Below are positions 6,102 through 30,382 of a stretch of 64,000 nt of DNA, one piece after another. The stretch's first letter is position 1. Every line of letters begins with the position of its first letter. A program made the translations under genes and the position numbers. The notes under the pieces were generated by a model that saw only the letters and a list, made by a program, of their open reading frames with translations, was not told where the DNA came from and searched no databases. The DNA is taken from contig QBVC01000014.1 in assembly GCA_003058495.1 (NCBI GenBank), forward strand, positions 62,001 to 126,000. The letters are read 5' to 3'. The DNA is from a gamma proteobacterium symbiont of Ctena orbiculata (GTDB lineage Bacteria; Pseudomonadota; Gammaproteobacteria; Chromatiales; Chromatiaceae).

Positions 6102-6119
6102 AACCGTTTCTTTTGAAAA

Positions 6120-6280
6120 GTCCGCAAATGAACGCTAATGAACGCAAATTTTTCTAATGCATCCGGCATATCATCCACCGACCCAGATTACCCAATATTC
6201 AAGCTCGTTCTCTGTTAACCCTAAGTCCTGAAAATGAACCCTAAAAAACATTTGCGTTTATTTGCGTTCATTTGCGGACT
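6120..6280. mobile_element. inverted-repeat-bounded MITE-like insertion in nuo operon (copy 1)
   Basis: Left arm 6120-6149 begins GTCCGCAAATGAACGC; right arm 6250-6280 is its inverted partner, ending GCGTTCATTTGCGGACT. Arms are about 31 bp with two or three mismatches and consist of a 10-bp unit (CGCAAATGAA) repeated three times. The interior of about 99 bp has no gene. The same arms recur at 25185-25437 and 28711-29180. The insertion sits between two genes normally almost touching, and no clear target duplication is visible. It could also act as an mRNA hairpin between cistrons. Confidence 0.75.
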
Positions 6281-23964: not shown

Positions 23965-24255
23965 GAGACTGCTGCGTCCTCAATGACCCTGTTTACATAA
24001 GCGTAGATGATTATCGATGATGATCCCCGGTCAAGAAACGGTAAATGTAAATATATATGTCAATCTTGCTAGGAATCTAGGGAATGAACAATCAGGCGGA
24101 TTGGACTCCAGGGTTCTCTCGCCAATTTTTTGCGTTCATTTGCGGACTTTCAATAGCCGCTCTCTTTTCAGGAACCCGAATCCCAATCCTTGATGTTCCA
24201 CTCCACCGGGAAAAGATATAGAATCCGCCTCCCCGATCCCAACAGGATTAGCCTT
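23965..24255. other. divergent intergenic region rlmE/yhbY with a solo repeat arm
   Basis: 291 bp serving two divergent genes. The only clear structure is a 20-bp half arm of the inverted-repeat family at 24129-24148; no inverted partner is seen nearby. Confidence 0.5.
24129..24148. repeat. solo half arm of the CGCAAATGAA inverted-repeat family
   Basis: TTTGCGTTCATTTGCGGACT, the outer two-thirds of the right arm found at 6250-6280, 25407-25437 and 29150-29180. It may be the scar of a decayed or excised copy. Confidence 0.7.
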
Positions 24256-25130: not shown

Positions 25131-25184
25131 CGAATATGTCCTCTATATCCTGTTGCTCTCTAATCTAGAAAACACTATGACTTT

Positions 25185-25437
25185 GTCCGCAAATGAACGC
25201 GAATAAACGCAAATATTGATATAGCCGCAAATGAAACCAATAACGCTTACTCGAGATTATAAATTCCCTGTATAGCAGGCTGGATCATTCAACTGATATT
25301 GTCACACCATACTCAATCATTAATAAAAAAAGGCATGGGACAGGGCTAGTTCATACTCTGTTGTTTCTCAATTCTGGAAACACTGAATTAACCAGAATCA
25401 ACTCTTATTTGCGTTTATTCGCGTTCATTTGCGGACT
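25185..25437. mobile_element. inverted-repeat-bounded MITE-like insertion between carB and greA (copy 2)
   Basis: Left arm 25185-25214 starts GTCCGCAAATGAACGC; right arm 25407-25437 is its inverted partner and differs at one base from the right arms of copies 1 and 3. The interior of about 192 bp has no gene but holds a degenerate extra unit at 25222-25246 (AGCCGCAAATGAA). Another degenerate unit lies outside at 25459-25474. It fills most of the 358-bp gap between two cotranscribed genes. Confidence 0.75.
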
Positions 25438-25488: not shown

Positions 25489-28701
<3,213 letters not shown>

Positions 28702-28710
28702 TTAGTACTT

Positions 28711-29180
28711 CAGTCCGCAAATGAACGCGAATGAACGCAAATTTAAGTCAAATTATGGAAGCATCATCATGCTGCCATACGAGTCTGCGCACACCCAATC
28801 GGGGCGTGCCGAAATTGAGCAACAAACCGACACTCAATCCTGTTGCACGGAGATAGTTCATCACCTGTGCGTCATGTTCTTTAGTCAAAGTCGACAAGGC
28901 CTTCAGTTCCACCAGCAGTAAATTCTCCACAACAATATCCGCGACATAGTGACCGACAATATGATCTTTGTAACCGACCTCTAAATATTTCTGCCTTTCA
29001 AAAGCCAGTCCTTGTCGCTCAAGTTCCAGGCAAAGTGCATTCTCATATACCGCCTCAAAAAACCCAGCACCCAATTCATTACTGACTTCATACCCGCAAC
29101 CAATGACTCGCTTGGATACAGCCTCTCCCGGTCTCTTCATAGCAATTCCATTTGCGTTTATTTGCGTTCATTTGCGGACT
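28711..29180. mobile_element. inverted-repeat-bounded element carrying a GxxExxY gene between carA and carB (copy 3)
   Basis: Left arm 28712-28743 starts AGTCCGCAAATGAACGC and right arm 29150-29180 is its inverted partner; the right arm is identical over 31 bp to that of copy 1 at 6250-6280. The interior is 406 bp, of which 393 bp is one gene (28748-29140), so the element is arms plus gene and nothing else. No clear target duplication. It starts 10 bp before the carB start codon. It looks like the gene-bearing parent of the two empty copies. Confidence 0.8.
28748..29140 (-). CDS. GxxExxY protein, PD-(D/E)XK nuclease-like
   Basis: 130 residues. The name motif is at G26-FF-E29-AV-Y32 in ELGAGFFEAVYENAL. 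D68 in HYVADIVVEN followed by E78-L-K80 in LLLVELKAL gives the D...ExK arrangement of PD-(D/E)XK nucleases, and Q92 lies in a following helix (DAQVMNYL). The family is widespread but its function is not established. The gene lies in the same orientation as carA and carB and sits tightly between inverted repeat arms, which argues it belongs to a small mobile unit. ATG at 29138-29140 has only a weak GGA upstream. Nuclease activity is inference from the motif. Confidence 0.85.
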   Translation of the reverse strand: MKRPGEAVSKRVIGCGYEVSNELGAGFFEAVYENALCLELERQGLAFERQKYLEVGYKDHIVGHYVADIVVENLLLVELKALSTLTKEHDAQVMNYLRATGLSVGLLLNFGTPRLGVRRLVWQHDDASII

Positions 29181-29190
29181 TCTATCTTTT

Positions 29191-29227
29191 CGCGGCCATT
29201 TGCGGTGATTGGCGTCTATTCGCGGCT
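29191..29227. repeat. degenerate repeat array overlapping the carA stop codon
   Basis: A decayed run of the same GCGNNNATTTGCGG-like units, about 10 bp beyond the right arm of copy 3. On the minus strand it reads GCCGCGAATAG, whose TAG is the carA stop codon, so the repeat has set the carA C-terminus. Confidence 0.55.
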
Positions 29228-30382
29228 TGAATCTCTTACTTTCATCAACTCGATGAAGTGATCGAACACCGGCGCCACGTCGTGGGGTCCGGGGCTGGCC
29301 TCCGGATGGCCCTGGAAACTGAAGGCAGGTTTATCGGTACGGTGGATGCCCTGCAGGGTGCCGTCGAACAGGGAACGATGGGTGGCGGTCAGATGATCGG
29401 GCAGGCTCGCCTCGTCCACCGCAAAGCCATGGTTCTGGCTGCTGATCATCACCGTGCCCTTGTCCAGATCCTGCACCGGGTGGTTGGCGCCGTGGTGGCC
29501 GAACTTCATCTTCACCGTCCTGGCGCCGGAGGCCAGGGCCAGCAGCTGGTGCCCGAGGCATATTCCGAACACCGGCAGGCCGGTATCGACGATCCTGCCG
29601 ATCGCCTCGATGGCGTAGTCGCAGGGCTCCGGATCGCCGGGCCCGTTGGAGAGAAATATGCCGTCCGGCTGCAGTGCCAGCACATCCTCCGCCGCCATCT
29701 GCGCCGGCACCACGGTGACCCGGCACGCCCGGTCCACCAGCATGCGCAGGATATTGCGCTTGATGCCGTAGTCGTAGGCGACCACGTGATAGGGCAGCTT
29801 CTCTTCGATGGGATGGGGCGCTTCCGGATGGCCCTCTTCCAGGGACCAGGTGCCTTGCGCCCACTCATAGGGCGACTGGGTGGTGACCTCCTTCGCCAGA
29901 TCCATGCCCTTCAACCCCGGAAATCCCCTGGCCAGCTCCAACGCCTTGTCAGGATCGGGACTCTCCCCCGCGACGATGGCGCCGTTTTGCGCACCCTTCT
30001 CCCGCAGGACGCGGGTCAGCTTGCGGGTATCGATACCGGCGATGGCGACGATGCCGTGACGCTGCAGATAGTGCTCGAGGGACTCCTCGGAGCGCCAGTT
30101 GCTGGTGATCAGCGGCAGATCCCGGATCACCAGACCCGCGGCATGGATATGCCCCGACTCCTCGTCCTCCTGGGTGATACCGGTGTTGCCGATATGGGGA
30201 TAGGTCAGGGTGACGATCTGCTTGCGGTAGGAGGGATCGGTGAGGATCTCCTGATAGCCGGTCATCGCCGTGTTGAAGACCACCTCGCCGACGGTTTCAC
30301 CCTCGGCACCGATGGCCTCGCCCCTGAACTGGCTGCCATCCTCCAGGACCAGAATTGCCGGTTTGCTCAAGAATCTCTCCAC
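29216..30382 (-). CDS. carA: carbamoyl-phosphate synthase small subunit
   Basis: Glutaminase subunit supplying ammonia to CarB. 388 residues: N-terminal CarA domain ([17 protein letters not shown]) and C-terminal class I amidotransferase domain with nucleophile Cys in [11 protein letters not shown] and the His/Glu pair in [13 protein letters not shown]. The last residues (SSRE and stop) are encoded by a degenerate copy of the inverted-repeat family, so the natural C-terminus may have been replaced. Confidence 0.98.

Follow-up and report, generated by a model that had tools for sequence, protein, structure and literature searches.

A GxxExxY nuclease-like gene between inverted repeat arms: a candidate nuclease and repeat pairing comparable to REP/RAYT

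The window analysed here is a 64,000-nucleotide stretch of contig QBVC01000014.1 (positions 62,001 to 126,000) from a gamma proteobacterium symbiont of Ctena orbiculata. In the gap between its carA and carB genes lies a GxxExxY gene, predicted to encode a small PD-(D/E)XK nuclease, which is enclosed by two inverted repeat arms. Since arms of this kind accompany GxxExxY genes in many phyla and their sequence varies with that of the protein, we consider it probable that the protein recognises its own arms and spreads and maintains arm pairs in the chromosome.

Results

The GxxExxY element in the carA-carB gap

The gene is the single GxxExxY gene of a Candidatus Thiodiazotropha-like genome and lies on the same strand as its two neighbours, which we take to be carA and carB from their protein sequences alone (Table 1). 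Its arms are 31 nt each, face each other, are 94% complementary and stand 407 nt apart, with gaps of 5 and 9 bases to the gene. The packing of the gene between inverted arms, noticed in a first-pass annotation of the window, is therefore confirmed together with the 9-bp gap, while the other gap and the distance between the arms, given there as 4 bp and 406 bp, had to be corrected. When paired, the arms fold better than shuffled sequences (z -9.1); two single arms that were folded showed no such advantage (z 0.40 and -0.02), the arm itself not being palindromic. The element is adjoined by an arm of a second type, presumably older, and the coding end of carA in the window includes this arm sequence.

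Table 1. Coordinates of the GxxExxY element, its neighbours and other arms in the window
Feature	Position	Strand	Remarks
GxxExxY gene, PD-(D/E)XK nuclease-like	28748..29140	-	130 aa; open reading frame and profile matches
Arm past the GxxExxY stop codon	28712..28742	+	three CGC[AG]AAT units, 10-nt spacing; convergent with partner
Arm 5' of the GxxExxY start codon	29150..29180	-	three units, 10-nt spacing
Second-type arm adjoining the element	29189..29225	-	contains the carA stop codon
carB	25489..28701	-	
carA	29216..30382	-	
Gene-less convergent arm pair	25184..25437		192 nt interior; past the carB stop codon
Gene-less convergent arm pair	6119..6280		100 nt interior
Solo arm fragment	24129..24144	+	two units

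The GxxExxY protein

The protein matches TIGR04256 at 140.9 bits (curated cut-off 35 bits) and PF13366 (PDDEXK_3) at 140.2 bits. These were the only Pfam/NCBIfam matches at E<=0.001, and a tyrosine (HUH, IS200/IS605-like) transposase domain was not found. The motif residues singled out by the first-pass annotation held up in a 10-sequence alignment that includes the window's protein, where G26, E29, Y32, D68 and K80 never vary and E78 hardly does; across 58 sequences the D and K of the PD-(D/E)XK motif are invariant and the E nearly so. The predicted fold, from a structural model and fold matches, agrees with the PD-(D/E)XK assignment made earlier and is nearest to Cas4, the known nucleases compared being Cas4/RecB-like and Hjc-like PD-(D/E)XK enzymes. 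In Cas4, four conserved cysteines hold an iron-sulphur cluster. The GxxExxY protein is without these four, having one cysteine in the invariant or nearly invariant columns of the 58 sequences, and is shorter than Cas4 SSO0001 (129 versus 202 residues in the comparison). A sequence search of solved structures gave no match, and neither did defence and phage protein libraries. In L045, the carA-carB copy of genome G011, alanine replaces E78, whereas the near relatives G008 and G009 retain glutamate.

The name GxxExxY occurs in PMC8934634 and PMC12085832. In the open-access literature we found no function or repeat association for TIGR04256/PF13366, none of six arm sequences and nothing relevant on a link between PDDEXK proteins and repeats.

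Arms flank GxxExxY genes in many phyla

Loci were taken from 56 genomes comprising the window's own and its relatives (24 with a GxxExxY match), from 398 genomes of the phylum, of which 65 had a match and the 30 best loci were used, and from named genomes across many phyla (80 of 127 loci kept). The 139 loci handled yielded 138 with an open reading frame and 122 with a full-length domain, 16 being excluded at the latter step, and 120 after removal of L092 and L094, which duplicate L044 and L058; the loci of G005 and G019 recur in the named-genome set as L092 and L093. Nine of the 120 are carA-carB orthologues. Arms were scored where a flank, in a window extending into the gene, held two or more convergently oriented CRCNRAK units in tandem; windows that clipped arms overlapping the gene start gave lower counts (77/122 and 75/120).

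Convergent arms were found on both sides of 89 of the 120 genes, in many phyla, whereas mock genes placed in these loci had them in 2 of 960 cases, as the first-pass annotation had expected of GxxExxY genes in many genomes. At least one side was occupied at 109/120 loci (74/960 for mock genes), and after thinning to below 70% protein identity the corresponding figures were 56/75 for both sides and 67/75 for at least one. The units are spaced by 8-11 nt. Both-sided arms or an inverted repeat exceeding the 99% null were present at 105 loci, and at seven loci both sides carried arms in the opposite orientation. Genes lacking repeats, named beforehand as a finding that would refute the idea, do occur in part, since 15 of the 120 loci failed the arm criteria and five of these show nothing at all. 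Among 20 loci added later, 14 have arms, one of them with quite different letters. Neighbouring arms of at least three units were convergent in 109 cases, divergent in 24 and in the same direction in 31, within a gene-centred set that includes orthologues. No convincing other gene cargo was seen between convergent arms in the fetched flanks, which are biased because the loci are gene-centred.

As a specificity control we chose PF04480 (DUF559), which we take to be a small PD-(D/E)XK-type family and which is present in 145 of the 398 genomes. None of the 29 loci used (L362-L391, one of the 30 being too short) had CRCNRAK units on either side. The DUF559 genes were instead flanked on both sides by CCCTCTCC-type repeats at 16/29 loci, compared with 0/488 mock positions, the motif list having been picked after a first inspection of the flanks, and 15/29 had inverted repeats over the 99% null. 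The window's own genome has a DUF559 locus of this kind (L380, G000:C38:1644-1961).

Arms vary with the protein

The letters and spacing of the arms diverge with protein distance (Mantel r 0.56, p 0.0005, 108 loci). The correlation was 0.66 for pairs within phyla and 0.52 for pairs between phyla only, with p 0.0003 for the latter and the same value when arms were permuted just within phyla; phyla were assigned from record titles, and three loci without a phylum name were treated as different from all others. Both the spacing and the letters of the units can be forecast from the nearest proteins beyond a 40% difference. In the genomes with two comparable GxxExxY genes (G006, G007 and G023) each gene has its own arm type; G009 and G048 also have two, one of which was unusable in each. 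Comparison of individual residues with unit letters gave weak signals only. Nothing, in our view, points more strongly than this covariation to a reading of the arms by the protein, and arm recognition by the GxxExxY protein is likely.

Arms in the window and its genome

With one mismatch allowed, a two-unit pattern has 16 matches in the window, where shuffles predict 0.25, and 304 in the whole genome, where the reversed pattern has 15, which means that the arms are not a product of chance. A CCCTCTCCC-6-GGGAGAGGG pattern was absent from the window at up to 3 mismatches. The own-genome loci sampled comprised 24 convergent pairs and 21 single arms. Arms are mostly extragenic: in the own genome, which alone was used for this count, 12 of 69 fall within open frames of 200 codons or more, compared with 5427 of 6600 positions chosen at random. 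Arms at separate sites are often near-identical whereas their interiors are not: an all-versus-all comparison of 18 interiors gave just short matches (21-30 nt), some of them to another repeat, and four relatives searched with the interiors gave nine matches, at orthologous sites as far as these could be placed. A further short palindromic repeat (TAGGGTGCGGCTTGCCGCACC-type) recurs in these intergenic regions as well as within arm pairs (L210, L261, L343 and others).

Arm number and the presence of the gene

Within the genus, the nine genomes in which the carA-carB gene is open have 44-195 arm matches and the 12 in which it is broken or a remnant have 0-127 (p 0.0008, which is optimistic since the species are not independent). 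The state of the gene was scored by the author, the remnants in G005, G014, G015 and G019 by eye, and G013 was excluded because its carA-carB site was not found. Among the 398 genomes, 29 have both arms and gene, 13 arms only, 36 the gene only and 320 neither (p 1.7e-16); within family f58 the numbers are 28, 6, 17 and 23 (p 0.0007). Genomes were called arm-positive with at least three three-unit matches and a count above the control, a threshold that was set after inspecting the counts; G083, G255 and G374, with at least three matches, were not counted because their control was higher. In the gene-less genomes G001 and G018, remnants of the gene are still visible.

Inheritance and mobility

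Orthologues of the carA-carB gene gave dN/dS (the ratio of nonsynonymous to synonymous substitution rates) of 0.04-0.28, mostly 0.06-0.11, for 27 of 36 pairs, the other nine being saturated and many dS values exceeding 1. The gene thus looks vertically kept under purifying selection. Searches by tblastn with one query protein, which could miss diverged members, found GxxExxY in 8 of 72,556 plasmid records and in none of 50,697 phage records. The selfish spread that the first-pass annotation had put forward is not borne out as it was stated, given this apparent vertical inheritance, the rarity on plasmids and phages and the failure to catch an insertion.

At the gene-less pair past carB, about 336 nt with arms and interior are absent from G012 and G018, and arm-like sequences of another type are present in G007 and G016. 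That two arms inserted separately on either side of DNA already present is disfavoured at this site, as arms and interior are missing together, but may apply elsewhere; G006 retains a lone arm at another site. The 6119-6280 pair was found in 7/7 relatives examined, with identities to the window of 0.68-1.00 for the arms and 0.58-0.83 for the interior, and three of the 14 relative arms appear one unit shorter. At a further site the element of G006 is 97% identical to that of G000 (the window's genome) when inverted, compared with 86% for the directly aligned stretch. G032 has a multi-copy element of about 190 bp (L272-L288) with AGTACT-like ends, which holds an arm pair of about 92 nt end to end whose interior is present in both orientations. 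In both cases the interior has been inverted, presumably through recombination or cutting at the arms. In G007 a repeated element of about 580 bp (L289, L290 and L291; copies 92-97% identical) carries a partial GxxExxY copy together with arms. Its ends look ISL3-like to us, and one copy has an apparent 8-bp duplication, as seen by eye.

Discussion

We propose, at odds of about two to one, that the GxxExxY protein is a small nuclease which recognises its own arms and spreads and maintains arm pairs, in the manner of the REP-associated tyrosine transposases (RAYTs) with repetitive extragenic palindromes (REPs) and their paired form, REPINs. The enzyme would be of the RecB/Cas4-like PD-(D/E)XK kind, and the arms recognised would consist of two to four CRCNRAK units of about 10 nt, arranged as a tandem ladder and set as an inverted pair. 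The gene and its arms together would be the copy from which a chromosomal repeat family derives. The nuclease would bind the arms and nick or cut them, probably on a hairpin extruded in single-stranded DNA, and would in this way spread and maintain the intergenic pairs. Binding, cutting, the single-stranded hairpin substrate and a copying step are steps that we infer, and the spread of arms by the protein is plausible.

Of the known systems, REP/RAYT comes closest. According to PMC2817692, RAYT genes are flanked by two inverted REPs with which they coevolve, the presence of the gene goes with REP abundance, and the rayt genes evolve rapidly; REPINs are described, in PMC3116915, as inverted pairs with less conserved spacers. 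The GxxExxY gene likewise lies between facing repeats, the extragenic copies are often inverted pairs, and protein and repeat coevolve. The enzyme, however, is of the PD-(D/E)XK kind and not a tyrosine transposase, the single arm is a non-palindromic tandem of ~10-nt units unlike a REP, and the tested interiors are unique. Both-sided arms occur at 89/120 loci whereas RAYT genes are described as always flanked, and the GxxExxY gene is under strong purifying selection. On genomic evidence the GxxExxY system thus works like a RAYT without being one. The facing repeats, which change along with the protein, suggest that bacteria have, besides REP/RAYT, a second such pairing of a nuclease with dispersed genomic repeats, of independent origin. 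The arm pairs also resemble miniature inverted-repeat transposable elements (MITEs) in being short inverted-repeat units with many intergenic copies, but they share arms only, no target duplications were seen at the divergences that the relatives offered and the tested interiors are single-copy.

Several observations weigh against the proposal that the protein spreads the arms. All 12 of the gene-less interiors tested, by their 90-nt middle parts, are single-copy in the own genome, so that the spreading entity is not the whole unit. No clean arm insertion or target duplication was found at 13 sites in up to 7 relatives, or between the near relatives G021 and G016 at 20 loci each; the differences met in this search were deletions, inversions (including an inverted remnant) and duplications. 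Six of the 20 later loci have no arms. G011 has 129 arm matches with alanine at E78, and G013, which is 92% complete, has 123 with no gene found. In the 398-genome sample, 13 of the 42 arm-positive genomes lack a detected gene, and outside f58 the link between arms and gene was not significant (1 genome with arms and gene, 7 with arms alone, 19 with the gene alone and 297 with neither; p 0.40), probably because the search pattern fixed the spacing at 9 nt; most of the genes inspected outside f58 have arms, often at other spacing. To these points the non-independence of the genus species is to be added. Repeats in the absence of the gene, the other finding named beforehand as adverse, thus occur in part, in some genomes; a gene remnant (G001, G018) or hitch-hiking on another repeated element (G032) can be seen in a subset of them. 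Of the original idea of a gene-arm unit that spreads empty copies, the generality of the unit, the covariation, the greater number of arms with an intact gene and the predicted nuclease fold speak in favour, whereas the empty copies cannot be shrunken units: they share only the arms, and their single-copy interiors rule out internal-deletion copies of the gene unit.

The arms could instead be host elements with a job of their own, such as mRNA hairpins or protein-binding sites, with GxxExxY as a conserved host partner (a processing nuclease or a regulator) and no selfish spread. Strong purifying selection and vertical inheritance at carA-carB would fit such a role, as would the rarity of the gene in plasmid and phage records, the location of arms between genes and the 6119-6280 pair, where the arms are recognisable across the genus while the interior drifts. 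An essential function is not expected, however, of a gene that is broken or a remnant in 12 of the 21 scorable Thiodiazotropha genomes, with fewer arms there; arm pairs are also gained and lost between species, and the gene is patchy in the phylum (65/398 genomes). We consider this explanation unlikely, though it deserves to be kept in mind.

It is distinctly less probable that the gene is a homing-type invader which enters pre-existing arm pairs, the empty pairs being targets not yet invaded. While its location inside a pair, the greater number of gene-less pairs and the predicted nuclease fold agree with homing, arms of this type gave 0-1 match in the other genera searched, except G023 (115), and none in four genus members with only old carA-carB remnants, and covariation of protein and arm over phyla would be harder to explain. 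Least probable, in our view, is that gene and arms are passengers of unrelated insertion sequences or MITEs: the elements of G007 and G032, which carry a partial gene with arms and an arm pair, respectively, are two special cases, inspection by eye of the carA-carB element and of the remaining own-genome pairs revealed no outer repeat shared between sites, and one would not expect mere cargo to vary in step with its arms.

GxxExxY genes occur in many bacterial phyla, and ladder repeats are scattered through many of the genomes searched. The tie between gene and arms provides a testable substrate for the protein and a likely maker for the repeats, and the many natural protein-DNA pairs with diverged arms may hold a sequence-recognition code. 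If the DUF559 case holds as well, a general class of nucleases with cognate repeats would emerge. Small stand-alone PD-(D/E)XK nucleases might then be generally associated with repeats, each family having a cognate extragenic inverted repeat of its own, the CRCNRAK ladder in the case of GxxExxY and the CCCTCTCC-type palindrome in that of DUF559; they would form a second counterpart of REP/RAYT, evolved independently, and be the source of many unexplained intergenic repeats in bacteria. We advance this wider proposal tentatively, at somewhat less than even odds. In G023, contig C11:55759-55989 has long tandem arrays of the 10-nt unit CGCGAATAGA/CGCGAATGGA, perhaps a ladder expansion by slippage.
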